A program made the translations under genes and the position numbers. A stretch of DNA of 41,488 nt from a virus: IMG/VR virus record IMGVR_UViG_3300006810_000113, positions 1 to 41,488 of that record. The stretch is one strand, 5' to 3'. Shown piece after piece: positions 6,957-40,024 of this stretch. The notes beneath the pieces were generated by a model, which saw only the letters and a program-made list of their open reading frames with translations, had not been told where the DNA came from and searched no databases. Each line of letters opens with the position of its first letter. Position 1 is the stretch's first letter.

Positions 6957-7012
6957 GAAATTAATAAAGTGCTAGAATAACTTGGAGTGAACCGCAAGCG
7001 TAAGGTTAGTAT

Positions 7013-21100: not shown

Positions 21101-24100
21101 CTAACTGTATCTTTTAAGGGTTCGTTAATAGCAATGTATAAGCCAGAACCACTAATTGCTACCCGTGTACCTAAACCGGAAGTTGTGCTATCTAACTGAT
21201 TAGTACTATCGTCACCAGTTATTATAGTTTGACTTAACTGATATAGCCCGTTGATATTTCTGTAGACTACAATTTTAGACGGTTTATCTAAATATGTTGC
21301 TCTTGCTACAAGTACATCTCCATTTTTCGATACGTCAAATGTAGATCCGAATGTCTCTAGTAGTTCTTGATCTAAAATAGTAGAGTAATCTACTGAATCA
21401 TTTATAACTACAGTTCCTGTATTGTTAGGTATATGTCCTACATAGTCTATGTATTCAGATTTCTCTGTCCAATTAGCAATATTAAATACACCAGGCACTA
21501 GATTTGTTTTTGCTTCATACAAAGTGCCATCAGGGTCATCAAGATAAATTATATCACCTGTTCTATAATTAAGTGTTTCGTCAAAAGCACCTTTGTATTT
21601 CTTAAATTTAGCTAGGTCCCAAGAATAATCAACTCCGTCTATAGTACCATTATTAACAAAATATATTTTACCAGGTAATACAATGCTCTCGTCACCTTTC
21701 GCTGCAACAAATGCTTTTTGATTACTACCATCTATTCGTAAAGTTACCTGAGATCCTAAATGTCTATTACTTTGTCTATCCGGTGTTGTAAAGTTACCTA
21801 TCAGTTCGTGGCCCTGCCCTAAACTCTTATATACAGAATACATTCCTTCATTTGTAAAATTACTTGCTTCTCCGTTTACATCAGCTGGAATGTTAAATAT
21901 CTCTTTCCAATTGTTGTTAATAATACTAGGTGGTTCATTTGTAATAGGTGCACCTAAAATTTGTCTATTTGTATACAACCAATATTCTGCATCTATTAAT
22001 TCGTTTTGACCTGTATACTGTATCTCCAAACTATTGTCAAGTTCTATGCTTACTGTATTTTTAAAAACTAATAAGTCGCCTATTCCTTGAGCTGAATTCC
22101 CTAAACTTACAGCATTTATATTTCCTATTTCTCTATCTATTTGATAAATCGAGCTAGGGTCGCTAGGTATTGCTAAAAATTCTATAGCTGCTAAGTCACC
22201 ATAATCAAATCCTTTGCTCCAAGTGCCTGTTGTATTTTTTACAAATATTTTTACATTTATGCCATTACGTTCTATGAATGCAACTTCTGCTGTTGCTCCA
22301 GTAGTTTTATCTCTTACTGTTTGGCCAATTTTAGGTTGATAAGGTTCGCCGTTAGTCTGGAATTTTGTAAATTCAAAACTAATGTACCCATTCCAAATGT
22401 CAACAATATTGTGTTCTCTATTAATTTGTCCCAGAGTTAATCCAATATTAGTAATAGGGTTTGGTACCCCTAACGTGTAATTAGGAATTTGATTTACATA
22501 TATGTAAACGTCATCGCCTATAGATAAAGTGTCTGAAAATGCAGACGGTGCTCTAACAGCAAATTTTGTATTTAAAATTTCTCCATTTACATTATCAGCA
22601 TTAGGAAAACCTTCATAGCTAAAAGTTTTAATGTAAGAATTTACATTATTTTCACTGTCTATTATTGTAGTATTAGTATCATATATGTTGTGATAATCAT
22701 TAATGTAAGTAGAATCTTCACTTATGTCAAGGTATATTAATCCTCGACCTTCGTCTGTCAATGTAGAACCATTTGTAACTGTATATGTTGGTGTTTCGAT
22801 AAACCAAAAACCGCCGTACACAATTCTATCTGCGTCTAGTTGTTTTACAAAATCTCCTACAAATTCACCAGTATTAAGTAAAAACAAAGATGCAGTAGTA
22901 TTAAATGTACCAACAGTATCTTTTAGATATACTATATATTTGTCTTCGTCGTTCTTGTGAACATACGCAACTGTACCTGCGCCAGTTGAAGACTGCACTG
23001 CATCGCCTACTTGTGGAATAGTGATAATACTTGCAAAATATAATGTTGTATCAATTGCTTCCCTAATTATATGTTGAGATTCAAAAAATGCTTCGTCTAT
23101 TCCATTATATTCTAAATTAAATGGATTTGTTGGCACTAGCGTTTCTTGATCTTGATAGGTTTTTGTAAGTGTGTTCCATGCAAATTTTGCTTGATATGAA
23201 TCAGCATTACGAGTATTATCGTATAAAGTTTTAGGCACTCTTACAAGTATATGATTTACATCTCCTGTAAATGCAGGTATACTAGTACCAGTACGCAGTG
23301 CATAATTTCCTACATTCAGTATAGAATAAGTTTCTGTTCTGTTTTCTTGATTTGAATCAATAATACCTTGAGTAACACTGCTAAAAGTATTAAACAAATT
23401 TCCGTCGAGCGCTGGAATTAGATCAAATTTTGATTCCCATAATCTATCTTTATATTTTACAATATCGCCCTCGGAGTATGATACCGACGTTGAAAACGCA
23501 TCTTTGTATTTGGTTTTTACATTAGATGCTGTAGGCGAACCTACAATTATATGAGGTCCTTTTATATCTACACTAGAACCAAATTTTAAATTATTACCAA
23601 TGCCAGTATCTGGCTCTAATACATCATTTAAAGTCCAAGACGAAGAAGCAGATTTTCTACTGTAAACCCAAACTTTTCCTTGTTCATTTTCAGGATCACC
23701 TATTACTAAAATATTATTATTATCGTTTACTGCAATACTATCACCAAATGTTCCACTAAATGTTGTTTCGGTATCACTAGGTCCGTTTACTTTTTCTAAC
23801 AAATCAAATTGATTACTATTTTTGAGTACTCGCCAATTATCAGATTCGGCAAAATTATCAATCCAAATACGCATATTGTCATCAAAAGATTTCTGTAATG
23901 TTTGATTAGCCTCGCTCACATCTGTAAATCTTACCTTCTCTAACTTTGTAATATTTGCTGTTACATTAGAACCCGAAGGAAGTTGTTTTGTAAATTTTAC
24001 ATATAATGTGTCATTTTCTTTTCTTGTAACCTGTCCGAAATAATTAACTGATGAATTATATACTGACTCATTTAAAGTAACTGAACTGTCCGCAAGATTT

Positions 24101-27100
24101 CCGCCTTGATCAGTATTAGGTGCATAAAAATTGTTTATACCTATAATATCATTTACTTGTATATCGCCAACTGGTTGTTTAAATTGTATTTCTGCAACAT
24201 AAAAAGTAAGTGCTTTAGATTCTGTAAAAGCGCCTAAATCGCCAAATAATGATTCAGCTATTGCTTGATCCGATAATCTATTTGCTTGTTGTATTTTTGC
24301 TTGAGTGTCGAGATATTGTTGATAAAGAAAATCAGACTGTTCTCGATCAATAATGTTAACTATTTCTTCTAATGTTAAAGTTTCAGTAGACACATTTATA
24401 ATTTCATAGTCGTTGATAGCTTTGACTTGTAAATCTGTTTTTACATGTCTGTATACATTCCAATCTTCAGTTTTATCACCAAATATCCAAAGATATTCAT
24501 TATTTCCTAAAACATTTGTTCCTACTCCTATTATGTCAGACAGATTTGATAAACCTGCTTTTACATCTTCTTTGTGAACATACCCAGCTGTGTTCACATA
24601 GCTAGTAAATTGTTTTTTAGTAGGAAACGGATTATTAATGTTTTCTGAAGGAACATATACATCATAAGTTGGAATGTTATACGTTGTGTCACCGTTCGTA
24701 TTTTCATCAGCAATTTGTATTAATTGCGGATTAACAATAAACTTTGCTTCGTCTAGTTTAACTTCAAATTCATCAAAAGTTGCCGAAGCACCGTATACAC
24801 CATCTCTAATTGCCCATTCTTCATAAAATTCCAAACTGTCTTTATCTTCACTTGCTAACGCATCAAACAATTTAGAAAAAGCATTTTGAGTTCCTTTTTC
24901 GAGAATCATGCCTTGATAAAACTTATATTGACTTACATCGTCAGCTATAATATTTTCAAGGTAATCTCTTTTTTGATATCCTATTAGATGTTGAGCAAAT
25001 TTTTGCTGCTCGGTATCAAAATTATCACTATCTAGATCATAAAAATCACCAAATTGATTAACTTTATATTCAAAATTAGGTAACAATCCTTGTTTTGGTT
25101 TTTCGTTTAGCGCAATCCAATTAGAAGCATTAAAAAATTCTGTACCAAGAATTTTTTTATCCGCAACATAAAATTTTTGTTCATATTGAATAAGGTCGCC
25201 TACATCATATGATTTATTTGATTCCCACTGTTCGTAATCTGCATCTTGGAAAACAAAACCTGGAATGTTAGCACTACCGTTCCACTCATCAGTACTATAG
25301 CCTAATATTTTTATTCTCTCTTGTCTATAACCAGGTATGAGATCAAAAATTACGTCACTAAACACAGTTTTATTATTCAATAAAATTACATGCTCTTTTT
25401 GAATTAAAGGTAATTCTACATGATAAATTCCTTCTCCTGTGTCTTCGTCGTTTACATATAATGTATATTCTGAATCACTTCTGCCTACTGAAGATAAATT
25501 TATTTCAAGTATATTTCCATTAGCATTATACAATGTATTTCCATTAGGGCCGTTATAAATATCGCCAACTACAGCATAAGGATTTTGGAATTGTAAATAA
25601 TTAGATCCCGGACTTAAAGAGATTAAGCTGCCTTCGTCTAGTTCAAATAACGTCCAGAACAAAAATTCCTTAGCTGAATGCAGCCAATTATACACAACAT
25701 TTTCATTTGATTTATAATATTCAAATACAAAACCTTTTTGTTGTAGATATTCGCCATAGCTAATTAAAAAGTCAACTACTTCTTGTTCTGTAGTTAACAA
25801 AGTGCCATATGGAATTTCTTTTATTTTTGTTTGAAATTGTGTACGTACTTCAACTGTTTTCCCACCTATTGTAGGCAAGCTATCTAGTTTTGCAAAAAAA
25901 TCTAGATTAAATTCTGTTTCTCTATTTGTTGCGGTACATCTATAAAATGTATTATTATTACGCACAATCGTACCAGTGGTATATAAGTTGCCGCTTTGCC
26001 ATTCAACATATGATTCACTTATACCACCTACGTTTATAGGATAATCACTACTACTAGCAATATGAGGAAAAATAGAAAAATATCCTTTTGCTTTGTTATA
26101 TCCTTTTAATAAAAATCCTTCTTCAGTTCGTTGAATAATTACACCGCTATAGGAACATATATCAACAGGAGTGCTCTCATTGTAAACAATTTCGTAATCT
26201 TCTTCAGGTACAAAAACATTTCCTTTGTTTAGTGGTGTTCTGCTGTCAAGGATTAACTTTAATTTGCTTTTTTCTGTGTAACCTGCAAATTTAAATCCCA
26301 TTTGATTAGTAATATTTTGCAAGTCATTTTTATAAAGATCGAAATTTTTCTTAATCATTTTTGAATAATTTGCAATATAATTTATTATACCACTAGTTGC
26401 AACATAATCATCGTCGATATTATTAGGAGGATACACTATGTCTTCTAACTGTAGTCTATTATTAGACGGTTTGTAAATTATATTTCCGCTTATATCTCTT
26501 ATTTGATTATATCTATCAAATGCGGTTGCAAAAAATTCATTAGGTTTATTTAAACCATATGCTATAAGTAATGCAAACGGGTACTCGCTAGATCTACGCC
26601 AGGCTGCTTCAACTGGAGCACCATCTCCAAATACAAAAGGCTTTTCTATGTTATTAAAATTATAAGCACCTATCAAACCAATTTCTAATGGTTTTATTAA
26701 GTCGCCGTGCTCGTCAACAGGAAGTATATCAAATAAATTAGGCCTACTATATTTAGAATCGTAAATAGGTCTTTGATCAGGAACACGTATAATACCCTTT
26801 TGAATGTCTTCCCATAGTAAAAAATTATCTTTTGTGTAAGGCGCTGAACCGTAGGTATCTTTCCACCAAGTAGGCTCAATAGAAAATCCTAGCATTTCCC
26901 ACGGAGCAATGTGAGGACGATCAGTATCGTAAAAGTATTTGAAAATTTCACGCCAAAAACCTGGTAATTTATTATATTCTATATCTGTACTATCACTATA
27001 ATTGTAAGTAAAACTATTATCTCGTTCAAAAAAATCATGACTGTGATAGTCTTTGTTTATTAAATTTGTCCAAGCAATAAATTCAGGAGTAAGTGCTTTA

Positions 27101-30100
27101 TTAACTAATTCAGAACTTAGAGAATCATTTCTGTAAAAGCTAGATTTAACTCTAGATATATCAAATAATTCAGCGTTATAAGTTACTTTTATATTATTAA
27201 AAATTCTTTTTTCTAATTCTATTAGTAGATCATCTCTATAATCATCATATGCTTTGGTTATAGATCCGTCGTGGCCTTGTATAACATTTACTGGTGTTTG
27301 TAATGTAGTATCTAAATAAATTTTTGGTTCAAAAAGAGGGTACAAACCTAATTTAGTAGGAGTGGGCGGAATATAATTACCATTTGTACTTTCATATTCG
27401 TAAATTGAAATTACATCTTGTGGTTGTTTACTAGCTGTAACTACTGCGTAGCCTTCGTTATTAAATGTATAATCAATTCCGTGCAATAATTGTACATCAT
27501 TCAAATAAACTTGAACAGCTCTTGTTGAAGCATCTGCTAGTGTAAAGTTTTCAGCTAAAGGAAAATAAATTTCATCGCTATCTTCAATTTCGTGATCGGT
27601 TTTTATATTGCCACTGTATGGTACCATATCACTAAAATAGAAGTTATCATTTGAATTTTTATTACGAGAAAATTCTTCTAAAATTTTATCAACATGAGTT
27701 TTTGCATCACCGCTAATTCCTAAATTTTCGCTCAAGCTTAAAAATTCACGTTTGAATTTACTATACTCATTTTTAGCATAGCGTATAGCATCAACAAAAT
27801 TAGCATTTTCATTTACAATGTGATACAGTGATAAATTTAAAGGAGCGCTATGTTGTAAAAAACGTCTACCATTTCTACCAATATCTGATATATCTCTTAG
27901 ATTACTTGAACCGGGATATTGACCTATAAATTCTTCTGTATTTTCTACAATACTAGATACATGATCATTTACTTCTCCTAAAGTAAAAGTATCTAAATTT
28001 TGATTTTTAGGATTTCGTTCTAAGGAATACGGAAATTCATATTTTCCATTTTGATTTTTCTGTAAATCTGAGGTAGTTTTTATAACTATATTGTCGCCAT
28101 ACTCTAGCGCAGCAACAAAATTAATTCTTGCATATTCAGTTACGTCCGGCTCTACAGTATAGTCGGTACCTTTAATTAGAAGTTGATTATTTTTGAAAAC
28201 ATTAATATGTATATTTTCAATATTATTTGAACTATCATCATATACATCTATATAAACATTATTGAAAGATTCGTCATATACATATTGTCTAATAACAGGT
28301 TGTTTATATCCAGTAACTTTTTGCCATTGTGAAACATTCTTAAAATCTGTTCTATTTTTATATTTTCGTAAATAACCTTTGTTTACTTCGACAATTTGTT
28401 CGTTTTCATTTTCTATGTAGGTAAAAGTGCTCTGGCCATAATCGGACTCAAACACAATATCTCCTACATTATTAATATTTTGATATGTTAACGCAAAGCC
28501 TAATTCTAAATCTACTGTACTATTTCCTACCTTATATCCTATAATTCTATTACCCTTAAAGGTGGTAGATTCATAGTAATTGATATCTCCGAAGCTGTAG
28601 TTATTGCTATCGAACATATCAAACAACGGTGCTTGATTTCTTTGAATTTTTCTTTGACTAACAGTCCAAACATCGTTTGCAAAAGATAAAACTTTGCCTT
28701 TATATTCATTACCCCTTAACACTGCAACTGTCTCGTTTTCCAAGGCTTCAGTATCGTCAGTTTCAACTAAGGTAATTTGTCTTCTATTCGACACAATGGC
28801 ATCATCTTCAATTGTACCATCATATGTAATAAATTTTACTGTATAAATTTTATTTTTTACAAATGGATCTGGGTCTGCAAGAAACAATATTCGCATTCCG
28901 TCTGCTAGATCTACACTATCTACGTTATATCCAATGCTTCCTTCAATAACAGAAAATACATCAACAGTAAAATCATCAACTAAATCGATATTTTGTTTTG
29001 CTTTTGTACCATGATTATATAATTTAATATTAGGGTCAAATTCAATAATCGGTCTGCTAGCCCTAAAATTTTGATCTAGCTCAACTATAGAATTATTTAG
29101 ATCTGCCGATTGTTGAATAATATCTTTATGGAACCATCTATTATGCCTTGACCATATATTACCGTCTATAGATGATCTATTAATGGTTAAATAATCTTTT
29201 TGCGACGGATATCCAATCGCTGTATCAAACGGTTTAGAATCAAATTGTATACTGTCAAAGTTGACTTCTATATCAGGTGTATATTCTGAAGGTATATTAA
29301 GCGAATTTTCTTCTATAAGAGTAATGCTGTCACCAACTCCTTCGACATAGAATGTTTTATCTTTATAATATGTAGGTTCTACTTCACCTATAAATTTAAT
29401 TTTCATTCCATTAGAAAATTCAACGCCGTTGCCTGATTTATAGTATTTCTTTTGTAAAATTTCTGCTTCTACGTCAACAAAAGCAGCTTCTTCAATATCT
29501 TTAATTTCAATACGTCCATTGATATTAATATCTTCTGTTGACACATACCATAAATCGTCTGGCGCATACTGACTAAGCTGTAAGGTTACTGTACCTTTTT
29601 CTAAGCCTTGTATATCTACGCCTTCGTATATTATAATAGATGAACTATCTAAGTCAAAATCTGACTGATCAGTTAATTTACTACGGAATACAATAGGAAA
29701 ATTTGGTATATCAACATCAAATTTATATGTCATGCCTCTATATAATGTTAGAGTAGGATTGTTTGTTAATCCATCTGGTGTAAAAATATAAGAGTACGAA
29801 TCTAAATTATCACCAAGTCTTACTTTTATAGTACTGTCAACTTCTACCGAGTTTCCGGCAATACTAATTGCTTGAGGCCCGCTAGGTAGCCAATAGTATT
29901 CTCTAAAATTAGCAAATTTATCCCAATTGATATTAGGGTTCCATGCATAAAATTCTTGCTGGGTTAATAAACCATAATCTTTGTTAGCAGAATTATAATT
30001 TGCAAATGCATTAGTATAATCATTAAAATCTTTATAGAATCTTGTATTGCCTAAATTATCTTTTATAATCGACGCAGGCTCAAACTTATAATCATTTCTC

Positions 30101-30339
30101 TTTTTAGAAACATCATCGAAGTATGTGTCATCTATATTATATGCTTTAGAATCTTTTCTCCCTACAAATCCATTAACTCTGTTAATTAAACCAGGAGATA
30201 TAAACCTATCTAATGTTGCATTTAAAAATTTACTATTCTGTGGAGTTCTAAAAATTTTAGGTAAATGATCTCTACTACGTCTTTTAGAAGATCCGTTAAC
30301 TGGCAAGTTAGGTTCATTTTGAAAATTATCGTAAGCCAT
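15199..30339 (-). CDS. Giant (5,046-residue) baseplate/tail structural protein
   Basis: One uninterrupted frame from ATG 30339, two bases after the gp6 stop. T4 gp7 (1,032 residues) follows gp6 in T4, so this may hold the gp7 place, but homology is not proven. Visible parts: an N-terminal domain with FNDYTNAFANYN and FREYYWLPSGP near residues 100-160; four short modules of the W-x5-Y-x2-GD-x-V-x-Y type near 1445, 1710, 2285 and 2925, like small carbohydrate-binding modules; seven FG-x-x-V...G-x-V-x-IY blades between about 2190 and 3215; two GSGY or GRGY repeat units near 3630 and 3990; and repeated beta-sandwich units of the type DGSS-x-Q-Y-x-V from about 4090 to the end. No signal peptide is seen. 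It is probably a virion component that contacts surface glycans. Confidence 0.8.
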   Translation of the reverse strand: MAYDNFQNEPNLPVNGSSKRRSRDHLPKIFRTPQNSKFLNATLDRFISPGLINRVNGFVGRKDSKAYNIDDTYFDDVSKKRNDYKFEPASIIKDNLGNTRFYKDFNDYTNAFANYNSANKDYGLLTQQEFYAWNPNINWDKFANFREYYWLPSGPQAISIAGNSVEVDSTIKVRLGDNLDSYSYIFTPDGLTNNPTLTLYRGMTYKFDVDIPNFPIVFRSKLTDQSDFDLDSSSIIIYEGVDIQGLEKGTVTLQLSQYAPDDLWYVSTEDININGRIEIKDIEEAAFVDVEAEILQKKYYKSGNGVEFSNGMKIKFIGEVEPTYYKDKTFYVEGVGDSITLIEENSLNIPSEYTPDIEVNFDSIQFDSKPFDTAIGYPSQKDYLTINRSSIDGNIWSRHNRWFHKDIIQQSADLNNSIVELDQNFRASRPIIEFDPNIKLYNHGTKAKQNIDLVDDFTVDVFSVIEGSIGYNVDSVDLADGMRILFLADPDPFVKNKIYTVKFITYDGTIEDDAIVSNRRQITLVETDDTEALENETVAVLRGNEYKGKVLSFANDVWTVSQRKIQRNQAPLFDMFDSNNYSFGDINYYESTTFKGNRIIGYKVGNSTVDLELGFALTYQNINNVGDIVFESDYGQSTFTYIENENEQIVEVNKGYLRKYKNRTDFKNVSQWQKVTGYKQPVIRQYVYDESFNNVYIDVYDDSSNNIENIHINVFKNNQLLIKGTDYTVEPDVTEYARINFVAALEYGDNIVIKTTSDLQKNQNGKYEFPYSLERNPKNQNLDTFTLGEVNDHVSSIVENTEEFIGQYPGSSNLRDISDIGRNGRRFLQHSAPLNLSLYHIVNENANFVDAIRYAKNEYSKFKREFLSLSENLGISGDAKTHVDKILEEFSRNKNSNDNFYFSDMVPYSGNIKTDHEIEDSDEIYFPLAENFTLADASTRAVQVYLNDVQLLHGIDYTFNNEGYAVVTASKQPQDVISIYEYESTNGNYIPPTPTKLGLYPLFEPKIYLDTTLQTPVNVIQGHDGSITKAYDDYRDDLLIELEKRIFNNIKVTYNAELFDISRVKSSFYRNDSLSSELVNKALTPEFIAWTNLINKDYHSHDFFERDNSFTYNYSDSTDIEYNKLPGFWREIFKYFYDTDRPHIAPWEMLGFSIEPTWWKDTYGSAPYTKDNFLLWEDIQKGIIRVPDQRPIYDSKYSRPNLFDILPVDEHGDLIKPLEIGLIGAYNFNNIEKPFVFGDGAPVEAAWRRSSEYPFALLIAYGLNKPNEFFATAFDRYNQIRDISGNIIYKPSNNRLQLEDIVYPPNNIDDDYVATSGIINYIANYSKMIKKNFDLYKNDLQNITNQMGFKFAGYTEKSKLKLILDSRTPLNKGNVFVPEEDYEIVYNESTPVDICSYSGVIIQRTEEGFLLKGYNKAKGYFSIFPHIASSSDYPINVGGISESYVEWQSGNLYTTGTIVRNNNTFYRCTATNRETEFNLDFFAKLDSLPTIGGKTVEVRTQFQTKIKEIPYGTLLTTEQEVVDFLISYGEYLQQKGFVFEYYKSNENVVYNWLHSAKEFLFWTLFELDEGSLISLSPGSNYLQFQNPYAVVGDIYNGPNGNTLYNANGNILEINLSSVGRSDSEYTLYVNDEDTGEGIYHVELPLIQKEHVILLNNKTVFSDVIFDLIPGYRQERIKILGYSTDEWNGSANIPGFVFQDADYEQWESNKSYDVGDLIQYEQKFYVADKKILGTEFFNASNWIALNEKPKQGLLPNFEYKVNQFGDFYDLDSDNFDTEQQKFAQHLIGYQKRDYLENIIADDVSQYKFYQGMILEKGTQNAFSKLFDALASEDKDSLEFYEEWAIRDGVYGASATFDEFEVKLDEAKFIVNPQLIQIADENTNGDTTYNIPTYDVYVPSENINNPFPTKKQFTSYVNTAGYVHKEDVKAGLSNLSDIIGVGTNVLGNNEYLWIFGDKTEDWNVYRHVKTDLQVKAINDYEIINVSTETLTLEEIVNIIDREQSDFLYQQYLDTQAKIQQANRLSDQAIAESLFGDLGAFTESKALTFYVAEIQFKQPVGDIQVNDIIGINNFYAPNTDQGGNLADSSVTLNESVYNSSVNYFGQVTRKENDTLYVKFTKQLPSGSNVTANITKLEKVRFTDVSEANQTLQKSFDDNMRIWIDNFAESDNWRVLKNSNQFDLLEKVNGPSDTETTFSGTFGDSIAVNDNNNILVIGDPENEQGKVWVYSRKSASSSWTLNDVLEPDTGIGNNLKFGSSVDIKGPHIIVGSPTASNVKTKYKDAFSTSVSYSEGDIVKYKDRLWESKFDLIPALDGNLFNTFSSVTQGIIDSNQENRTETYSILNVGNYALRTGTSIPAFTGDVNHILVRVPKTLYDNTRNADSYQAKFAWNTLTKTYQDQETLVPTNPFNLEYNGIDEAFFESQHIIREAIDTTLYFASIITIPQVGDAVQSSTGAGTVAYVHKNDEDKYIVYLKDTVGTFNTTASLFLLNTGEFVGDFVKQLDADRIVYGGFWFIETPTYTVTNGSTLTDEGRGLIYLDISEDSTYINDYHNIYDTNTTIIDSENNVNSYIKTFSYEGFPNADNVNGEILNTKFAVRAPSAFSDTLSIGDDVYIYVNQIPNYTLGVPNPITNIGLTLGQINREHNIVDIWNGYISFEFTKFQTNGEPYQPKIGQTVRDKTTGATAEVAFIERNGINVKIFVKNTTGTWSKGFDYGDLAAIEFLAIPSDPSSIYQIDREIGNINAVSLGNSAQGIGDLLVFKNTVSIELDNSLEIQYTGQNELIDAEYWLYTNRQILGAPITNEPPSIINNNWKEIFNIPADVNGEASNFTNEGMYSVYKSLGQGHELIGNFTTPDRQSNRHLGSQVTLRIDGSNQKAFVAAKGDESIVLPGKIYFVNNGTIDGVDYSWDLAKFKKYKGAFDETLNYRTGDIIYLDDPDGTLYEAKTNLVPGVFNIANWTEKSEYIDYVGHIPNNTGTVVINDSVDYSTILDQELLETFGSTFDVSKNGDVLVARATYLDKPSKIVVYRNINGLYQLSQTIITGDDSTNQLDSTTSGLGTRVAISGSGLYIAINEPLKDTVRKNEGRVVIYKQINGSFELLSVLENQNYDKNEQFGTEIDFDGEKLLISAKNSESIIDTTYDNNNTTFDYGFTRFAYTNANQGKVYIYDNIDDEFLLAQILSAPDNDIENFGSKIVLKNNNIYATSIFRNDSIGQIYNFKLTDTTTNTMWLNVRTLEETVDLSKIKKVFLYNRKTDEVIRNLDYIDIIQGKIAGVAEQEISFKTPDDPASYNIVSTSSSSDEGEDVIFDSGSPWAEEYVGKVWWNINNASFLNTYQNDVIYNSQTQNTLVDNSSIDVYEWVESRLTPSEYDSVVQEGLISGGFSLYGNRAYVVKQKYDVVSEQFVPRYYFWVKNKNTVPNVEGRNISISQIASIISNPVNAGIEFVSFLNGNSFLLNNVKQYLTDDNIVLSVQTFKVGNEDNNSHLQYQITTENLGSSQPNDDIILKWYDSLIGYDDFQRPVPDPRVPIKYRYGNLFTPRQTWFENRIEALKQVVERTNYVLKQNLIVDDKDLTPLFDADPSPTSEQQAYDEVVDTYDDLTDINVEKFTQAKLSLVIENGKVSRVDIVSKGRGYKVAPSVEVIGQGSGAVISTTIDSIGKLSSVVIENAGQNYDQDTIATVRSYRVLVNSDSNINTKWAIYERDTVFQVWTRAITQKFDTTLYWNYIDWYAEGYNQNTEINHIVETTHDIYTANINFDQTVKIKNVGTGGWLLLRRVNTTNNLDYTIDYETIGRQNGTIEFSERLYKPLPFGYDSNSFDIKLYDFLPIFELRIILYAIKNNLFVNDLLNEYNKLFFASIRYLLSEQNNADWLFKTSFIKAKHNVGKLRKDLTFNNDNLPSYENYIEEVKPYKTKIREYLSIYDRVEPARALTTDFDLRVIYDDELNRIVVPKTKFINDQIEVESRFVEDYPNKIWLDNASFEITAVNIIDPGSGYRTPPIINLTSESGTGAEIKTYIGTNGKLKKCEIINPGKGYFSVPEVEIISNITDTGTPARISVEIGNSKTRSLTNKMKFDRITNNFVVSVLESTESFVASGTSTQYTLKWPLDTRTDKIKVYVNDIELLLGDYTYENIEDKTKSYLRYLGRITTNNALSQGSEVRIEYSKSIELLNAADRIGKLYLPQTEGLGKELSQLMSGVDYGGVEVKGLEFDNIKGWDNDVWFNSTWDSYVDTNEDEIFTFDGSTTQITLSSPLEANTVYNVYLNNTRLDDPAYDGSTIVDNPNAIMESLIGDGLTQTLYLDEFRMPGSANYAEIKVVQGDVLVIRKTSSDGTFAPMPDSIDTNLSGGNLTYGNAQGLLANDITIDGDNFVTPNTSGRVEEHVPGQVLDTLNIKVTQKAQGGSSVISSDTYYGDGSTKIYKVNADVFLNNQIIARLNGDIVDTAEFTVDFNNSSIEFNTAPANGDIISISNFSVGGNDILASESLISDGSTLSIITSVPYKENLQSIVSVDGIEKEHQLVNDDAGNTVVEFADSIQENAEIQYNIYNTSDHINYSQLSIENLTADGSSTQYEVQEGQTGSLNEWQVVVTVNDQVLDPGYYETFNLTANVFEYSLNKEQVDLGNIPGYTVEVYIDDTKLQYLQDYDWDSDRAAVILDNNVVSFNAGQDLKVYVRHNAEYQFGNFVNEEFIVDNNTITFYTIYAENAKIKIYRFNNATHQGLIRDRITVKSLSGLQENTKEWRKISNIINKKINLTTETVDAQYVWLSRNKQLLTPNVDYVIDSSKKVIEIITDVDLGDEFLVIHFAAGPVQSELSWIQFKDILNRTRFYAITNNQEYTLADDLYWYDKKLTLKNADNLPSPGVNDKPGIIWINGERIEYYVRDGNVISQLRRGTLGTGAPMMHEKSTEVLYINDEHKIPYKDETYTTIFTADGTSSEYELDFTPTSESEFEVFVAGSRLRKNSIASYRFEYTDDQGNVIQPIDQDSPEGDITLEPDFTIVDDTKLVLKNTPPENVKILVIRKKGMSWYESGKSLKDSATPAAVFLQNVSA

Positions 30340-30341
30340 TA

Positions 30342-33300
30342 TTAGTATGAGCCTCCTGAATTATTGTTACTTGAACTAGATGAAGTATAATTTGTTGTTG
30401 AAGTTACATTTAAGGCAGTGCTTTGTACACCTACATTTACATCAGTAGTTGACGTAGTAATTAATCCGCTAGCTTGGATTTTAGTCGCTGTGATTTCATC
30501 TATAACTTCTAAATCTGTAATCTTTGCACCACTTACAAATATTTCATCTGATTCTGATTTTACTTCAAATAAGCTACCAAAAACTCTATTTGCATCGCTA
30601 GGAACGACAATAAATGTAACTATGTCAGGACTAAGTTGTTTCATTACATACGCACTCAATTCACTAAAATAGAATGTATCACCAAAATTCCAATTTTCTA
30701 ATGCAAAAAATTCTTCAATTGCACTTAAACACTGTGATTTTATATCATTATCGTTGATTACAGATTCTGGATTTTTAACAATTTTAAATGTTGCTTGCAA
30801 GTCACTATCTGCTTTTGCACCAAAAATTATTTTGTACTTTACAGGATTATAAATTATTTCATCACTTACTGATTTGATAGAAGCAAGATTTGCATTGTAA
30901 GAAAGATATAGCTGATCAGTACTAGGAGGCAGGGGTTTTTCTGCTTCGTCTCTTAGATATCTTCTAAAACTTGTGTCATAAGATTGAGTAAGCACATATA
31001 CATCTATTATGTTGCTTACACTCGGATCTAATCTTTTATCTTTATCTGCAGAATGCACATAATGGAATTTTAAATTATCTCTGCCAGAAACAGCTCGGTA
31101 GTCTGCTGTAACCTTTAGTGAATTTGATTCTTTGTTTAGAACTTCAAAATAATCCTCGTCTAGATAATAGAATATTTGTCCATCATCATACAAGCTAGTC
31201 GTTTGCACTGATGCCTTAGTTGGAAACGAAATAATTTCGTTGTTTGAATTAGGAAAATACAAATATTGTTCGCTTCCGTCAGCGTTCTGCTGTCTTTGTC
31301 TATATACAATTTTATTTTCACTGTTTACCTCGTCAGCAACAATTACTTCAAAAAGATCAGGATCATCAACTATTCCATCTTCGTCGCTATCAAAAAAAGT
31401 AATTTCCATTTTGCTACTATCAACATAACCATCTGTATCTCTATAACTTGCTAATACAGACCAATCATAATCAACAGTAAAAGCATCTGTAGAATCAGGT
31501 TTTGGATTGATACTCAAAACAGAAATTTTATCTTTTAATGTTTTGCCACTTGTTTTATTAAAAACTTTATCTGATGAATCAAAATAAAATCTAATTTCAT
31601 TAGGACTTTCGAACAAGTACCTACATGCTCTATATGTTACTGTATAAGTATTGCCTTCTGGCTCAAACAATAACAGCCAACTACTATCTAATTGCCTGCT
31701 TGAATTATTCCCTGCTTGCTTCAAACTGAAGTCATTAAAAATATCCAAATTGTCAAGAGTAATTACTTCCCATTTTAAATTATTTGTATCATATCTTAAG
31801 CCAAAAGTTTGTCTTGCAAATGCTTGATTAACTATCTGTGTCTGTGTAGTAGTAAATAATTCATTAGACATTTTTGGAATGATTTGATCTAATATTGCAC
31901 CTGTAGGAATTATATCAGATAATTTTACTGGTCCATTTCCGTTGTCTGTTAATTCTGTACCATTACCTTGGATACTGTATACTTTTGTCCAAAGATAAGT
32001 AACTGAATCTTTATGATCCGCTTCGCCGTCCATTAAAGCATTATTATTGCTTTTCATAAAATGCTTGCCTTCTGGTGCAACAAATTTTAACAAAGTATTA
32101 GGCTTAATAAGCTTTAATGTACTTGTAGTAAAATCTCCTAGCAATTGTAATTGGCCGCCAAGGTCATTAAAATAACCTGTATTTTGATTCGTACTACTAG
32201 ATACACTTGTCCAAAAATTGTTAAAGTCATTTACTTTTATTTTTGTATATTCGCTGTAGTAAAAGTTTTGTAAATTTTTATTTGCTAGCACAGGCTGCAC
32301 AACATTTATTATCGCACCGGCAATATCAGTTCTTGTTTGCCAGGAGAATTTTTCTTTAAATTGAAGTAATTCTTTTGTTAGAATACCATCATTACCGTAT
32401 AAATTTGTTTTACTGTATTTTCCTGTACTGTCTAATAGATCAAAATATCTACTAATACCACTACTTATTCTGTTTACACTTTTAACTTTTACAATGTCCG
32501 GGTTCCTTGTAATAGGTGCTAACTGATAATCTTCAGCTGTAATCATTCTATTTTGTGTATAGTAATTTGCCGGAGCGTTAGTTTTTATACTTTCATTAGA
32601 CTCAGAACTAGAACCATTGTTTATAGTATTAGGCAATTGGCATTGAATGTTAAGTGTCTCTTCTTTACCAAACTTACTTATGTACGGAATATTTAAACTA
32701 ATAGCCGAAAGTTCTTCTGGATCTAAAGAGCCTACATCTGGACTAGATACTCTAAAATACGCTCTAAATTTTCCTAATGGAATATTACCAAAAGTTCCGT
32801 CTCCGAAAACCAAGCTAATTCTGTCTTCTAATCTAGTCAACACACTGAAAACATTTTTATCATTTTTATTTAAGTTATTATATATTACATTATTTCCTTC
32901 AGTAGAAACAACTTTTGTCCATTCTTCGTCTTCATTGTTTTGTGCATCTAACGAGTACAGCCAAACGTCTGATTCATTAACATTTGTATCGTTAATAGCT
33001 ACTACTTGATTACTGTTACCTTCATTAAGTGTAAAATCTCCATTTATGAGTGTTCCTTGCCTAAAGTGCATAAAGTAACCTGTATTTTCACTTTGATTTC
33101 CTCTACCATCTGATCGATATAGAATTGCCAATTTGTTTCCGTTAAACGGAGCTTCTTCTACTATAGAACCATTTTCTATTCCAGTACTTACAATTTCGAA
33201 GGGTCTGTTTATGCCATTTATCGGACGGGTAAAAGGAAAAATAGGTAAACCTACATTTGCACTATTAAATCTATATTGTTGGGTTAAGATACCATTAATT

Positions 33301-33833
33301 GTTTCTTCTTGTAATGGATTACCTATACCAGCTTCATACGGAAGTGCTGCATTTAATATTCTTGTAAATTTACTTTTCCAGCCGACATCTTGGGAATCAT
33401 TAAATCTAATATTTGTTCCGGATATATTTAAATTATTTTCATCTCTAACGTCTTCAGAAGTTGTTACTGAAATAATTTTTAATAGCCCGTTTACAGGTAT
33501 TACACGTTTAGGTTGATAACTAAGAAGCCTAGCCAACCGTAGCACGCTTTCACGTCTTTCTGCTGTTTCAAGAAAGTTTTCTCGAGCGTTTAAATCTGTT
33601 CTAAACGAGAAATTCTGTCCTAAGAATGCTATTAAATCAATTAAAGCAATATATTCACTAGACTCAATATAATCATTAAAATCTTCAGGATAATTACGTC
33701 GCAAGTACGTAATCATTGTTCTTCGTAAATTATCAAAATCATAGGAAAGAAATTCAGCATTTCTAAAGCTTTGGTAGATGCGCTTCCAATCTTCGGCTAC
33801 TAATAGCCTATTTTGCCGATCAGTATTAGACAT
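30342..33833 (-). CDS. 6: Baseplate wedge protein gp6
   Basis: A 1,163-residue protein from ATG 33833, with GAAGG nine bases upstream. The N-terminus has the gp6 pattern: AEFLSYDFDNLRRTMITYL, SEYIALIDLIAFLGQNFSFR, then ARENFLETAERRESVLRLA. Gp6 forms the ring that holds the six wedges of the baseplate together. The C-terminal part (AIEEFFALENWNFGDTFYFS near residue 1050) also fits the wedge fold. It ends in a low-complexity Ser/Asn tail. T4 gp6 is 660 residues, so this one carries an extra central portion. It follows gp25, as in many marine T4-like phages, and has its own late promoter-like box. Confidence 0.9.
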   Translation of the reverse strand: MSNTDRQNRLLVAEDWKRIYQSFRNAEFLSYDFDNLRRTMITYLRRNYPEDFNDYIESSEYIALIDLIAFLGQNFSFRTDLNARENFLETAERRESVLRLARLLSYQPKRVIPVNGLLKIISVTTSEDVRDENNLNISGTNIRFNDSQDVGWKSKFTRILNAALPYEAGIGNPLQEETINGILTQQYRFNSANVGLPIFPFTRPINGINRPFEIVSTGIENGSIVEEAPFNGNKLAILYRSDGRGNQSENTGYFMHFRQGTLINGDFTLNEGNSNQVVAINDTNVNESDVWLYSLDAQNNEDEEWTKVVSTEGNNVIYNNLNKNDKNVFSVLTRLEDRISLVFGDGTFGNIPLGKFRAYFRVSSPDVGSLDPEELSAISLNIPYISKFGKEETLNIQCQLPNTINNGSSSESNESIKTNAPANYYTQNRMITAEDYQLAPITRNPDIVKVKSVNRISSGISRYFDLLDSTGKYSKTNLYGNDGILTKELLQFKEKFSWQTRTDIAGAIINVVQPVLANKNLQNFYYSEYTKIKVNDFNNFWTSVSSSTNQNTGYFNDLGGQLQLLGDFTTSTLKLIKPNTLLKFVAPEGKHFMKSNNNALMDGEADHKDSVTYLWTKVYSIQGNGTELTDNGNGPVKLSDIIPTGAILDQIIPKMSNELFTTTQTQIVNQAFARQTFGLRYDTNNLKWEVITLDNLDIFNDFSLKQAGNNSSRQLDSSWLLLFEPEGNTYTVTYRACRYLFESPNEIRFYFDSSDKVFNKTSGKTLKDKISVLSINPKPDSTDAFTVDYDWSVLASYRDTDGYVDSSKMEITFFDSDEDGIVDDPDLFEVIVADEVNSENKIVYRQRQQNADGSEQYLYFPNSNNEIISFPTKASVQTTSLYDDGQIFYYLDEDYFEVLNKESNSLKVTADYRAVSGRDNLKFHYVHSADKDKRLDPSVSNIIDVYVLTQSYDTSFRRYLRDEAEKPLPPSTDQLYLSYNANLASIKSVSDEIIYNPVKYKIIFGAKADSDLQATFKIVKNPESVINDNDIKSQCLSAIEEFFALENWNFGDTFYFSELSAYVMKQLSPDIVTFIVVPSDANRVFGSLFEVKSESDEIFVSGAKITDLEVIDEITATKIQASGLITTSTTDVNVGVQSTALNVTSTTNYTSSSSSNNNSGGSY

Positions 33834-33859
33834 GTATAAAAACCTTCAAATATATAAGG

Positions 33860-33867
33860 TATTTATG
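33860..33867 (-). promoter_or_regulatory. T4-late-like promoter box (CATAAATA)
   Basis: CATAAATA on the minus strand in the 59-base gap between gp25 and gp6, 26 bases before the gp6 ATG. It matches seven of eight consensus positions. GAAGG follows at 33847-33843, the ribosome site of gp6. Confidence 0.6.
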
Positions 33868-33892
33868 CTAATATAAAATGCGTACTAAACTT

Positions 33893-34375
33893 TTAATATG
33901 ATCTTTGTTCTGAATAATCGTTTGTTGTAGGTATTAAATAACCAGCTCTATTATCAAATCTAAGCTGCAAATATTCTGATACATCGTAAGGAACATAGGT
34001 AATGTTACAGGTAATTTGAATGCCATGTTCGTAAGAATCTACAATTATTTTGTCAGCATTTACTCTAGGATCATAGTTTATAATTTCTGTAACATCTTCC
34101 GCAATAGCTTCTTTTAATCTATCTGTTAGTGGGTCAAACAACACATCCCATATAATTGTACCAAACTCAGGATCTGACAACTTTTCGCCCTGCCTTATAT
34201 GAAAGTGATTAATAATATCTTGTCTAATGCATTCTAAATCAAAAACTTTAGTTGATCTTTTAGAAGGACTTGTAGTTGAAAAACCCTTATAACTTTGGGC
34301 AGGCAAACCATAACTTTGCTTCTTTGAAGTAGGTATAATAACTTCTTTGTATATCTTTTTTTCTATACGAGACAT
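33893..34375 (-). CDS. 25: Baseplate wedge protein gp25
   Basis: A 160-residue protein from ATG 34375, overlapping the gp5 stop by one base (TAATG). The core DLECIRQDIINHFHIRQGEK, then DPEFGTIIWDVLFDP and TEIINYDPRV, is typical of gp25, the small wedge protein related to a component of type VI secretion and of contractile tails. T4 gp25 is 132 residues; this one has about 30 extra N-terminal residues rich in Lys and Ser. In contractile tails it helps start sheath assembly next to gp53 and gp6. The neighbours agree with this call. Confidence 0.9.
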   Translation of the reverse strand: MSRIEKKIYKEVIIPTSKKQSYGLPAQSYKGFSTTSPSKRSTKVFDLECIRQDIINHFHIRQGEKLSDPEFGTIIWDVLFDPLTDRLKEAIAEDVTEIINYDPRVNADKIIVDSYEHGIQITCNITYVPYDVSEYLQLRFDNRAGYLIPTTNDYSEQRSY

Positions 34376-36618
34376 TATATAATTTTCCTATCTTTAATAA
34401 TATATTCTCTACAGTCTATATGATCTGCTGACTGATAGCCTTCAGGTGGAATACTGAAGTTACTAGTTGTAACTTCTAATCCCGAATACCATAAATCGTG
34501 ATCTTGTTGTTTTCCCCATGTAGTCAACGGAGGATGGAACAAATGATTATTCATTGACTCTTCATGTCGCCACGGATGCCCTGCAGGCATTCTTCCTAAA
34601 TTTGTTTTTATTACAGTAAATGTAGGATCTTTGTAATATCCTTCGGGCCAATTTTCTGATTTTTCATATTTTTTAACTGGTTTTGTATTCCAACTACCAC
34701 GACCACCTTGTTCGCCTTCACCCTTTTTGTTAGGTGTGTGCGAAACTAACGGCCATGTTTGATAGAATTCGTGCGGTCCTGTTGTACCTAATCGCGCTCT
34801 ATTAATAACTGCTCCGACTTCGTCAGAGCCTGGTCCATCTTGTGGGCCGCCTGGAGCTTCGTCAGTGCACTCCTTTGCGCCTGTGCCTAGCTCCTTTTGT
34901 AACTTAGTTCCTATTAATTCAAGATACGGGCCTCTAAATTCATCTGTGCTCCATTTCTTAAGTTTTTCTACTATTCTACCGTTTTCGTCTGTTGTAATTT
35001 CGTTTTCGCCAGCCAGGTCATAATAAGATTTAGATCTGTTGTGGCCGCCTACATCATCAAAATCAGGTCCTTCAGGATGACAATATGCATCTATAGTTGA
35101 GGTTTTTCCTTCTAAATCTGGTTCAGTTTCTCCTAAGTTAGTTGGTTGGAACGGAAAACATTTTATAATAAAATTATCTTTTCTATTTTCCATATGAAAC
35201 TGTAGATTTCCTTGATATAAATTATCTGCCCTAACTAAACTTGATCCTTTAAATGTTGAAATTCCAAAACCGTTAGTTGTTAGAATTTCCATTCTACCAT
35301 CTTTAACTTCGAGAGCAAATTGGCGTTGACCTGCTCCTCTGTGCTTACCGTCAGAACCAAAACCTAAATCTTTTCTTTGTTCCATATAAAGCTTACGATG
35401 CGCAGAAAAGTTAATATCTTGTGCTTCTACATTTACTTGACATGCATGTAAATTAATTTGCGCTTGACCGTCTTCCTCAGGAGAACCTTCTTGGCTTTGG
35501 CTTGCCATGTGTATTCCATCTTTTGCAAACACATCTATTTTTCCATTAGGTGACATGTGAATCCAAGACATACCACTGCCGTGCATTATATGAATAAAGT
35601 CTTCTGAATTGTGCATGATAATTCTGTGACCCGTTCGTGTTGTAATACGAAATTGTTCATGTAGATAAGTGTCTTTTAAGTTAGAGTGATCTCCGTCCCA
35701 TTGACTCTCTGCTTTTGAATTATAATCTGTAATATCAGGCTTTGTGCCTTTATAATCCCTATGTCCATCCCACGGATACCTTGAGCTAGTAAATCCTAAC
35801 ATCCCATCGTCCATAACAATGTTAGTTCCGCCCATACGCATTTTAGGTACAGGATTTACATCTTCCCCTACTTTTTGGTTAAAAACCTTGTTAGATCTAG
35901 GAGCATTATCCATTACAGCTGGCGGGCCTGGTGAACTCCACCCGTACACATTAGACGGAGTGTCTCTTCTAGCGCCGCTTGTTATTGCCGATGAAAACTC
36001 AAAATGGTCCATTGTACCTGCAAAAATTTCTCTATCTTCTCTAGTTTGCATTCCCCAAAGAGTTTTTATCTCATTATTTTTACCTCGCTTTTTACGATCA
36101 ACAGCAGCATCCCACTCAGCAATAGCAGCAGCATCATCAGGACCCGAAAATGCTCGTGATGGTCCTACGTCTTTTTTGTTAAAATTAGACTCAAGGTTGT
36201 TAAACAAATTTTGATTCATATATTCGTCATGCATGTAGCCAACTATGAATCCTTCGCCGTCACCGCCTTCAGCAACTACAACCACGCACAATACACCTAC
36301 GTCAGGCGGTACTGCCCAAAATCCATATGATGTTTGTGATTCTGCATAGGTACTTTGCTTTCCGCTAGCGGTATAATTAGTTTGGCCTGCAAAAGGTGAA
36401 GTATATCTTGCAATAATAGTTTGAGTGTCGTCGCCTGCTGTTGTACCTTGCTTACTGTTAGGTAAAATTTCTACTTCGCAATAACCCATTCTCTGCGGAT
36501 CGATATTATTTGCAACTCGACCAATATATATACCCGTACTTGTTCCAGCGCCGCCGGCCATAGAAGTACGTGTATTGCGGGTTACACCTGATGTTCCTTG
36601 ATTTAATTCTGGTCTCAT
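34375..36618 (-). CDS. 5: Baseplate hub/tail spike protein gp5-like, without a visible lysozyme domain
   Basis: A 747-residue protein from ATG 36618, six bases after the upstream stop. Residues 25-140 look like the OB-fold of gp5 and VgrG proteins: GIYIGRVANNIDPQRMGYCE, then YGFWAVPPDVGVLCVVVVAEG. Residues near 320-470 show short repeats typical of a needle-like beta-helix, for example TGHRIIMHNSEDFIHI, MSWIHMSPNGKIDVFAKDG and FALEVKDGRMEILTTNG. T4 gp5 has a lysozyme domain between these parts; here that stretch has no recognisable lysozyme active site. The final 200 residues are of unknown type, rich in Gly, Pro and Trp. It is probably the central spike that pierces the outer membrane. Confidence 0.8.
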   Translation of the reverse strand: MRPELNQGTSGVTRNTRTSMAGGAGTSTGIYIGRVANNIDPQRMGYCEVEILPNSKQGTTAGDDTQTIIARYTSPFAGQTNYTASGKQSTYAESQTSYGFWAVPPDVGVLCVVVVAEGGDGEGFIVGYMHDEYMNQNLFNNLESNFNKKDVGPSRAFSGPDDAAAIAEWDAAVDRKKRGKNNEIKTLWGMQTREDREIFAGTMDHFEFSSAITSGARRDTPSNVYGWSSPGPPAVMDNAPRSNKVFNQKVGEDVNPVPKMRMGGTNIVMDDGMLGFTSSRYPWDGHRDYKGTKPDITDYNSKAESQWDGDHSNLKDTYLHEQFRITTRTGHRIIMHNSEDFIHIMHGSGMSWIHMSPNGKIDVFAKDGIHMASQSQEGSPEEDGQAQINLHACQVNVEAQDINFSAHRKLYMEQRKDLGFGSDGKHRGAGQRQFALEVKDGRMEILTTNGFGISTFKGSSLVRADNLYQGNLQFHMENRKDNFIIKCFPFQPTNLGETEPDLEGKTSTIDAYCHPEGPDFDDVGGHNRSKSYYDLAGENEITTDENGRIVEKLKKWSTDEFRGPYLELIGTKLQKELGTGAKECTDEAPGGPQDGPGSDEVGAVINRARLGTTGPHEFYQTWPLVSHTPNKKGEGEQGGRGSWNTKPVKKYEKSENWPEGYYKDPTFTVIKTNLGRMPAGHPWRHEESMNNHLFHPPLTTWGKQQDHDLWYSGLEVTTSNFSIPPEGYQSADHIDCREYIIKDRKII

Positions 36619-36624
36619 TTACTG

Positions 36625-37689
36625 TTATTCCCTGTATTCTTTTACATCTGATATTAATTCGCCGCCTGGTTCATACATTGGAGTACTGGTGCCTTCGCCT
36701 TGCTGTCTGTAACGAATACAGCTAAGTGTTTGTTTAAATCCTTCTGATTTTGTAAATGTACTCTGCACTTTTACTACCTGATAGAATCCTGTAAATCTGT
36801 ACTGTCCGGGTGTTGTCCACGGAACACCTAAATCATAAGGTGTTTCAAAGTTTATTTGAATATCCGCTTCGCTGTTTATATATTCAAGATCTCCGTCTTT
36901 TGTTAAATTTCCGTCGCTGCCAGCAATATAATTGCCGCATCCGTTTGACTGCAAATAAACTGGATCGCCGTGTATATCCATTTCTATGTTTAGCAAATCA
37001 ATATCTGAATTCATTAATATGTTGTGCCAGTCTCTGTTAGCTATAGATTCTGTATGTTTAGGTGTACCTATAGTCATTTTAGATCTTTGCGGAAGACTTT
37101 GAGTTTGCGTTATTTCGTCTGGAGAGCTAGGTGGCGAGCCTATTACTGATTTCATTAATACATCTGCACCTTTAGGGTGTTGCAATCCTGGTGTACCTAA
37201 TGCGGCTGTTGCTTCGTTGTGTCCCATATCTGACGTAATCGGCGCAAAGAATGAATAGTTAAAATCTAAATCTAATTTAAGAACATCATTATTTAAGCCA
37301 GTGTAAATATAATTATAAATCCTAGCAGGAGATCCTCCCCCTTTGCCTATACTTCCGGGCGCTGCAAATCTGTTTAATGCTGCTTTGTGTTCAATAACCC
37401 TATAGATATATGTTTTAGCAGTACGCCCGCTTTCAGGTTCTTTAGCACTGCTTTCTGCTAACACAAAGCACTGTATTTTATACCAATTAACTTTGTTATT
37501 TTCATCAGGTTTGCCGTTGACTCCTTCGTTTCGACCGTATTCACTGGCTAAAATTAGTTCTTCTAATATATCAATAATTCTATTACCTGTTTCGCACTTA
37601 ATACTGAAAGAATCATGATCTAATAAATTAAATCTATTTTGAAAAATGTCGTAATTTTCATCAGTTCGTGTATTGCGAACAGGTCCCAT
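36625..37689 (-). CDS. Baseplate hub-like protein, C-terminal part (start uncertain)
   Basis: A 354-residue frame if it starts at ATG 37689, but that ATG has no ribosome site and the same frame continues open for 114 codons upstream until a TAA at 38034-38032. The protein begins VRNTRTDENYDIFQNRF, then has a SIKCETGNRIIDILEELILA segment and NKVNWYKIQCFVLAE, and ends near RFTGFYQVVKVQSTF and QTLSCIRYRQQG. Immediately before gp5 one expects the hub partner; in T4 gp27 binds gp5. That identity is inference from position, as no gp27 motif was recognised. The gene in front (38032-38889) lies in the same frame, so both may be parts of one protein of about 750 residues. Confidence 0.7.
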   Translation of the reverse strand: MGPVRNTRTDENYDIFQNRFNLLDHDSFSIKCETGNRIIDILEELILASEYGRNEGVNGKPDENNKVNWYKIQCFVLAESSAKEPESGRTAKTYIYRVIEHKAALNRFAAPGSIGKGGGSPARIYNYIYTGLNNDVLKLDLDFNYSFFAPITSDMGHNEATAALGTPGLQHPKGADVLMKSVIGSPPSSPDEITQTQSLPQRSKMTIGTPKHTESIANRDWHNILMNSDIDLLNIEMDIHGDPVYLQSNGCGNYIAGSDGNLTKDGDLEYINSEADIQINFETPYDLGVPWTTPGQYRFTGFYQVVKVQSTFTKSEGFKQTLSCIRYRQQGEGTSTPMYEPGGELISDVKEYRE

Positions 37690-38034
37690 TTTATTGATTT
37701 TTCTATCAAAAGGTGTTTTGCTTAATGTCGACTCACCTATCTTATTGCAGTTATCTTTATAAAAACTATAAATTACAGGACCTCTTGAATTAGTACCTTT
37801 GTTACCGCTGAGATTGTATTGTTTATTTTGTGCTACCCAATCATCAAACGCTTTATAAGCTTGTGCATCTCCTGTTGAATTTTCAGCAGCGCTTAAACTT
37901 CCAATACCTCTTTCTTTATCCCAATCTTCTAACCAATTTACTGCAAATTCAGCCGCGCCCGGCGACGAAAGTGCTGTTAATACTGCTGATTCTTCAGCAC
38001 TCGTTTTTGTATCAGGAAATACTATGTAATATTA
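37690..38034 (-). other. Open 114-codon extension and in-frame TAA joining two hub-like genes
   Basis: This stretch between the two hub-like genes lacks an ATG, GTG or TTG in the coding frame, yet has no stop apart from the TAA at 38034-38032. It encodes a plausible soluble sequence (YYIVFPDTKT, FAVNWLEDWDKERGIG, AFDDWVAQNKQ) that runs straight into the downstream frame. The TAA ends the upstream gene in the same frame. A single base change would restore one continuous gene. Readthrough, initiation at a rare codon such as ATA 38025, a recent mutation or a sequence error are all possible. Confidence 0.75.
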
Positions 38035-38889
38035 ATCGCCTTCAGCAATCAAACCTTTTTCTTGTTTTTTCAATTCTTGGGAATTTAGCAAAGCAGTTAA
38101 ACTATTTTGTCCATAAAAACAGATATCTTTAAGTTTGTCTCCAACAAGTGTACCATTGGTCTTAAGAGTAGCGTTTTCATCATTCCATGCTTGATCATTC
38201 CATGCTATTGCTTGACACTGATACATTGTGCCGCCCTCGGTATATTTAAATTTTGCGTTAATTAATTTTACAACAAAATTAAATGGTCCTACAGTGCCCG
38301 GGCGACCTTGATCGTCCCAGCCGTCGAACTTCAATCCTAGCATCCAGCCAGCATCTGAATAATTAGCCCAACCTTGCGCCCTTGCTGCTTTGTCTAAATC
38401 TTCAATGAAATTACCTAAACTATATGGTTCAAATATGTCAAAATCAAAACTTATAGAATGAGTGTTTCTTATGTGTGCATTTGGCGCAGCAAGCCCTTGA
38501 ATTCGCATAGAATCAAAGTGATAATCACTCGCTCCCATGTCAACAGCTACTGGTATACCTGCTTTAAATTGCCCTTTTATCGAATCAGGAAAATTTGTCT
38601 GTCCTTTAGACAAACAACATAAAGACCACATCCAAGAATAAGAAGCAAATTTATGTAATGGATTTTTTCCGCCAGCAGTTGCACCTGTGCCGCCGCCATT
38701 TGGTGTTGGATTTTTATTTCCGCCGGCGCCTGCTGCTCTATTGGGCTCACGAAGATAAAAGAAATCATCAGGAGATAAAGGATTATCTACCCATGTACGC
38801 CAGCTAGTATCGCTTACCGGAGTATCTGTGTTTTCTCTTGTGCTTTCTCCGCCGTTAGCAAGTGTTGCATCAGTATTAAAAGTAGGCAT
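38032..38889 (-). CDS. Baseplate hub-like structural protein, N-terminal part
   Basis: A 285-residue protein from ATG 38889, overlapping the gp53 stop by one base (TAATG). It has a Gly-rich low-complexity stretch near residues 50-75, then SYSWMWSLCCLSKGQ, ISFDFDIFEPYSLGNFIEDL, and FNFVVKLINAKFKYTEGG followed by MYQCQAIAWNDQAWND. The pattern F-x-F-x-V-x-L-x2-A-x-F-x-Y near residue 220 suggests a beta-barrel hub or tube-like fold. It stops at a TAA, after which the frame stays open into the next gene. It is probably part of the central hub of the baseplate next to gp5, which is inference from gene order. Confidence 0.75.
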   Translation of the reverse strand: MPTFNTDATLANGGESTRENTDTPVSDTSWRTWVDNPLSPDDFFYLREPNRAAGAGGNKNPTPNGGGTGATAGGKNPLHKFASYSWMWSLCCLSKGQTNFPDSIKGQFKAGIPVAVDMGASDYHFDSMRIQGLAAPNAHIRNTHSISFDFDIFEPYSLGNFIEDLDKAARAQGWANYSDAGWMLGLKFDGWDDQGRPGTVGPFNFVVKLINAKFKYTEGGTMYQCQAIAWNDQAWNDENATLKTNGTLVGDKLKDICFYGQNSLTALLNSQELKKQEKGLIAEGD

Positions 38890-39203
38890 TACAGCAGTTC
38901 CTTTAAATATTTTGCTTGAGGCAAATATATTTCTACACCAGCTTCGAGATCATAAACAGGGTCTCTAATAACATTTAGATTTCTTTGTGCAAAAACCCAC
39001 CATAAAGCTCGTTCTTTATACAAATCATATGCTAACAAATCCGGCCTATGTGTATATTGAGGTTCTATTTTGTAAAGCACATCGTTTGCTCTTGCTGGTA
39101 CTGGCCTAATTTTTAAAATATCTAAATACAAATCATTTTTTATATCGGTTTTAAAATAAGGACTAGCTCTGCTATAGTCCGGTGAGTCATATTTTGTAGT
39201 CAT
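38889..39203 (-). CDS. 53: Baseplate wedge protein gp53
   Basis: A 104-residue protein from ATG 39203, overlapping the gp48 stop by one base. The sequence follows the gp53 pattern: an N-terminal SPYFKTDIKNDLYLDIL, then YTHRPDLLAYDLYKERALWW, and a C-terminal LEAGVEIYLPQAKYL that resembles the small LysM-like end of gp53. T4 gp53 is 196 residues, so this is a short version. In T4 it joins neighbouring wedges in the last step of baseplate dome assembly. Its position between gp48 and the hub gene agrees. Confidence 0.8.
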   Translation of the reverse strand: MTTKYDSPDYSRASPYFKTDIKNDLYLDILKIRPVPARANDVLYKIEPQYTHRPDLLAYDLYKERALWWVFAQRNLNVIRDPVYDLEAGVEIYLPQAKYLKELL

Positions 39204-40024
39204 TATAAGAATCCATCTAATGCGCCAGCAGCAAAACCTTGTAGACTAAATGTTTGAGACTTGCCTCTACTAATAGCAATCTGCATATTAGCTGTTATTT
39301 CACATTTTGTAGGAGCGTAAGCGCCTACACTAGATTGTATGTAATCAACATCTGCAGGCAAACTTATGTTCCATTGCTTTACTACAACTGGCACATTAGG
39401 AAGCACATGTCTTCCATAACCAGTTAAAGTTACAACCGGAGGAGGCGAACCTTGGAATGCACTGTTTGCATATGCACTTTTAGTTACTGTTTTGAGGTAT
39501 TGTTGTGCAGCAATTATGTAATCTGCTTCTCTTTCTGTTTGACAAGTAAACGTTCCTGAAATACTAATATCACTTACACCGCTGTTTTGGTAAACAACGT
39601 ATGGGTATAATGCATGTGTAGGTGTTTGTTCTGAGTAAGCAGCAAATGTACCTAATGAAACTGTAGGAGTATACGGCCAAATTAACCCATTTGTACGAGC
39701 AATACTACGATGCAACGGTCCAAAACTTATTCCTGGTGGTATACTTAATCTCACTCGCCAATCCTGAGCACCGGTTGCTTTCCAACTAGCAGTTTGAAGC
39801 GTTATTGGTGTTGGATTTGCTCCTTCGGGAATATTTCTTGACCGTAATTGACTGTTGAAAAATTTTCTTTCGTACGTTTCATTGTCAACAAATTCGTCAA
39901 GTCTATTCGTATTATCACCAGTTATCGTAGAACTACCTAAAACTGCATCATTTGTTGCCGTAGGATCAAATGAACTTCTACTTTGACTATCTTGTGTTGG
40001 ATTTTCTACAAATGGTAATGCCAT
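39203..40024 (-). CDS. 48: Baseplate tail-tube cap protein gp48-like
   Basis: A 273-residue protein from ATG 40024, with AGGAAG five bases upstream. It is the first gene of the leftward structural run. The central part (WRVRLSIPPGISFGPLHRS, then GLIWPYTPTVSLGTFAAYSE) and a following YPYVVYQNSGVSDISISGTF resemble the tube-like fold of gp48/gp54, which cap the baseplate and start the tail tube. The N-terminal 60 residues are polar and probably flexible. T4 gp48 is 364 residues. It could instead stand for gp54, as only one such gene is in view, but the gp48 place next to gp53 is the better fit. Confidence 0.7.
   Translation of the reverse strand: MALPFVENPTQDSQSRSSFDPTATNDAVLGSSTITGDNTNRLDEFVDNETYERKFFNSQLRSRNIPEGANPTPITLQTASWKATGAQDWRVRLSIPPGISFGPLHRSIARTNGLIWPYTPTVSLGTFAAYSEQTPTHALYPYVVYQNSGVSDISISGTFTCQTEREADYIIAAQQYLKTVTKSAYANSAFQGSPPPVVTLTGYGRHVLPNVPVVVKQWNISLPADVDYIQSSVGAYAPTKCEITANMQIAISRGKSQTFSLQGFAAGALDGFL

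Follow-up and report, generated by a model that had tools for sequence, protein, structure and literature searches.

The window analysed here is the whole stretch of 41,488 nucleotides at positions 1 to 41,488 of the IMG/VR virus record IMGVR_UViG_3300006810_000113. On the minus strand, positions 38889-36625 form one frame of 755 codons, which on translation was broken internally only at codon 286 and closed with a terminal stop. The internal stop is a TAA (38034-38032, minus strand) in a frame that is otherwise open over 754 codons; its coordinates and the description of a single split frame were as reported in the initial annotation. Upstream of the TAA, the 285 N-terminal residues of the gene product are encoded (38035-38889, minus strand). 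The remainder of the gene at 36625-37689 (minus strand) has the status of an ORF solely because the first ATG beyond the stop falls within it. Between these two parts are 114 codons (38031-37690, minus strand), which include three Trp codons and lack ATG, GTG, TTG and CTG. The weak-start triplets in this stretch are, in full, ATA at 38025, ATT at 37905, ATT at 37773, ATA at 37740 and ATC at 37698. The sequence upstream of the first ATG (37689), TTGATAGAAAAATCAATAAA, contains no clear ribosome-binding site, as had been stated. The 114 codons aligned to close intact relatives at 98-100% protein identity and also fell inside a match of ~66% to two more distant contigs (L009 and L010). Judged from these alignments, the coding character of the stretch, already described as protein-like, is not a matter of chance.

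TAA terminates 17 of the 20 genes in the window (with genes counted as split) and is therefore the normal stop here, which upholds the earlier view that this codon is not reassigned. The least probable of all the explanations considered, to the point of being dismissible, is that this phage reads TAA as an amino acid: the internal TAA itself speaks for it and nothing else does, whereas the terminating TAA codons include those at overlapping junctions and no other internal TAA was seen relative to intact relatives.

The interrupted gene is situated among genes for baseplate components on the minus strand. It sits between a baseplate wedge subunit gene (38889-39203; PHROG 7145, E 2.7e-24) and a baseplate hub subunit/tail lysozyme-like (gp5-like) gene (34375-36618; PHROG 13211, E 1.6e-15), an arrangement also found in Agrobacterium phage Atu_ph07, and a gp25-like baseplate wedge protein is encoded at 33893-34375 (PF04965, E 2.1e-9). 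An intact copy of the protein from a close relative (L001) matched PHROG 11190, 'virion structural protein', with an E value of 5.9e-22, and the two pieces of the interrupted gene each matched the same family (E 1.3e-9 and 1.4e-11). Searches of Pfam and PDB gave no sequence match for this protein, and two AlphaFold models had a mean pLDDT of ~30 and were unusable. The label 'hub-like' given to the gene initially was supported only indirectly, by its position beside the gp5-like hub/lysozyme gene; its best profile is an unspecific one. By analogy of gene position, a hub-related role (T4-type, gp27-like) is plausible for the protein; a term search of a study of jumbo phage MIJ3 (PMC6892783) gave no hub evidence.

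Viral contigs were scanned with the part of the gene after the stop as query, yielding 11 loci. All eight closely related contigs that cover the site (L001-L007 and L011; 92-100% DNA identity) carry CAA (Gln) at the position of the TAA, and in each of them one frame passes uninterrupted through the site. A pattern scan in which the first base of the codon was left free detected no further TAA carriers; seven contigs matched, all of which were by contig name already among the 11 loci, in a collection that may omit the window's own record. As far as these contigs tell, the TAA is private to the contig studied here. The gene is likewise open in more distant relatives. Three contigs at 66-75% protein identity have TCT (Ser) at the site and are open through it: in L009 and L010 (~66% protein identity) the gene is continuous, and in L048 the frame is cut by the contig end soon after. 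Eight additional contigs (L060-L067), ~50% identical in protein, emerged when the C-terminal part of L009 served as query, and all eight have CAA at the aligned position. The whole gene is open in seven of them (749-750 codons), the other (L065) running off the contig end. No relatives were found by a scan of bacterial and archaeal genomes. Alignment of related genes, proposed earlier as a check for fusion, found a single gene in the relatives and none split in two; a single open frame in all of the intact relatives also corroborates the suggested single protein of about 750 residues.

These comparisons bear on two further explanations. Programmed readthrough of the TAA would produce short (285 aa) and long (754 aa) structural proteins, and the frame 3' of the TAA is indeed open, coding and devoid of a start codon. 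A programmed signal should, however, be conserved among phages that are 92-99.99% identical, and it is not; every relative, near or far, has a sense codon at the site, and the window, which covers the genome only in part, contains no tRNA genes. Readthrough is accordingly a very remote prospect. Equally improbable is an arrangement of two separate genes, the second of which is translated from a rare codon (ATA 38025) or from ATG 37689. An ATG is present in the second ORF at 37689, but a start there would drop 114 conserved codons and would have no clear ribosome-binding site, and in the relatives this place lies inside the coding sequence of a single protein. Conserved readthrough, a rare start and a reassigned stop are all disfavoured: signs of each would be expected in phages with 92-99.99% identity, and there are none. 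Of the four mechanisms put forward in the initial annotation, a fresh nonsense mutation and an assembly error therefore survive, whilst readthrough and a rare start are not sustained as conserved devices, since no relative has a stop at the site. For the same reason, the idea of a conserved short and long hub pair found no comparative support. On comparative grounds, there is no new two-protein device here, whether a conserved readthrough, a rare start or a split gene.

The best explanation, to which we assign a probability of about 0.96, is that the ancestral gene (36625-38889, minus strand) is one continuous gene for a virion protein of ~754 residues from the baseplate region, as seen in L001, L003, L007, L009 and others, and that a change of one base, confined to this contig, converted Gln-286 to TAA, either as an isolated mutation or as a sequencing error. 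The interval is one interrupted gene and should be annotated as such; automatic annotation would wrongly give two genes at 36625-38889.

The origin of the base change was assessed by comparison with a near-identical neighbour, contig IMGVR_UViG_3300025853_000484 (i.e. L001, also G001), which aligns without gaps to the 28,924 bp at positions 12455-41378 of the window, with 99.99% identity. The two sequences differ at three positions only (16257, 17215 and 38034), and the neighbour has a sense codon where the window has TAA. At all three positions, every compared relative covering the place has the neighbour's base, indicating that the base in the window is derived and that all three differences are private to it. 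Each private change converts a G:C pair to A:T or T:A, and each is nonsynonymous: the change at 38034 creates the stop, and those at 16257 and 17215, which between them produce Asp to Tyr and Ser to Arg, lie in a single 5046-aa ORF (15199-30339), the largest gene in the window. Between the window and a diverged relative (G004) there are 1,267 codon differences, 288 of them (23%) nonsynonymous. Three nonsynonymous changes out of three would have a probability of ~0.012 at the G004 rate as compared to ~0.49 without selection, a weak test given only three differences. No codon difference other than the one at 38034 affects a stop in any of the genes compared. The pattern of private differences, as read from the alignments, fits unselected errors or very young mutations. 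The neighbour may originate from the same sample as the window or from one nearby, and the population may be mixed.

Within the reading of one gene with an isolated base change, the likelier option would be an erroneous base that entered the consensus through sequencing, amplification or a low-depth minority variant. The other, less probable but still substantial, would be a genuine nonsense mutation, very recent and probably defective. We infer a split of ~60:40 that leans towards error, given both the conservation of the virion protein that the gene specifies and the two other private protein-changing differences in the same contig. If the molecule were real, the 285-residue fragment would be translated and the rest would depend on infrequent nonsense suppression or would not be made. 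Such a fresh nonsense allele would probably cripple the phage, assuming that the phage is not viable without this virion protein. It is highly unlikely that a real TAA-bearing lineage is kept by a suppressor tRNA, either the host's or one from another part of the phage genome, with the full protein made at a reduced level. If real, the mutation would be an ordinary nonsense allele; as a caution, one private base in a metagenomic consensus can mimic a split or recoded gene.

A separate difference was observed elsewhere in the window. Positions 6968-7741 (774 bp), encoding the last ~240 codons of a gene at 7013-8713 (minus strand), are absent from G004 and a second relative (G002). Both relatives are contiguous across the junction, and in G004 the gene simply ends there. 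It looks as though a putative tail or appendage protein had gained or lost a C-terminal domain; the protein encoded at 7013-8713 had no PHROG match.

The baseplate genes (30342-40024) relate the window, at the level of protein sequence, to jumbo myoviruses. The wedge protein encoded at 30342-33833 is ~33-36% identical to those of Atu_ph07, Sinorhizobium phage Phosso and Pseudomonas phage PA5oct, a likeness from which it follows that the genome is probably much larger than this 41-kb contig, which would be a fragment of it. For the interrupted gene, the intact protein gave weak matches only against named phages, and tblastn of the downstream piece against the same phages gave no match at 1e-5. 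Homology to the Atu_ph07 and PA5oct orthologues was supported over the N-terminal third by profile comparison, and in a multiple alignment conserved residues were present on either side of the site despite identities of 19-24%. In Atu_ph07, the orthologue is gp698 (YP_009612363.1), a member of PHROG 11190, the family that matches the window gene on both sides of the stop. The gene order is the same as in the window (i.e. structural protein, baseplate wedge, gp698 orthologue, hub/lysozyme), but gp698 is annotated as a single CDS of 663 aa without a stop and is ~24% identical. The PA5oct orthologue, gp349 (YP_010678865.1), differs in being a single annotated CDS of 674 aa without a stop and with ~19% identity, whilst occupying the same place before the hub/lysozyme gene in a record that carries an ESI-MS/MS note.
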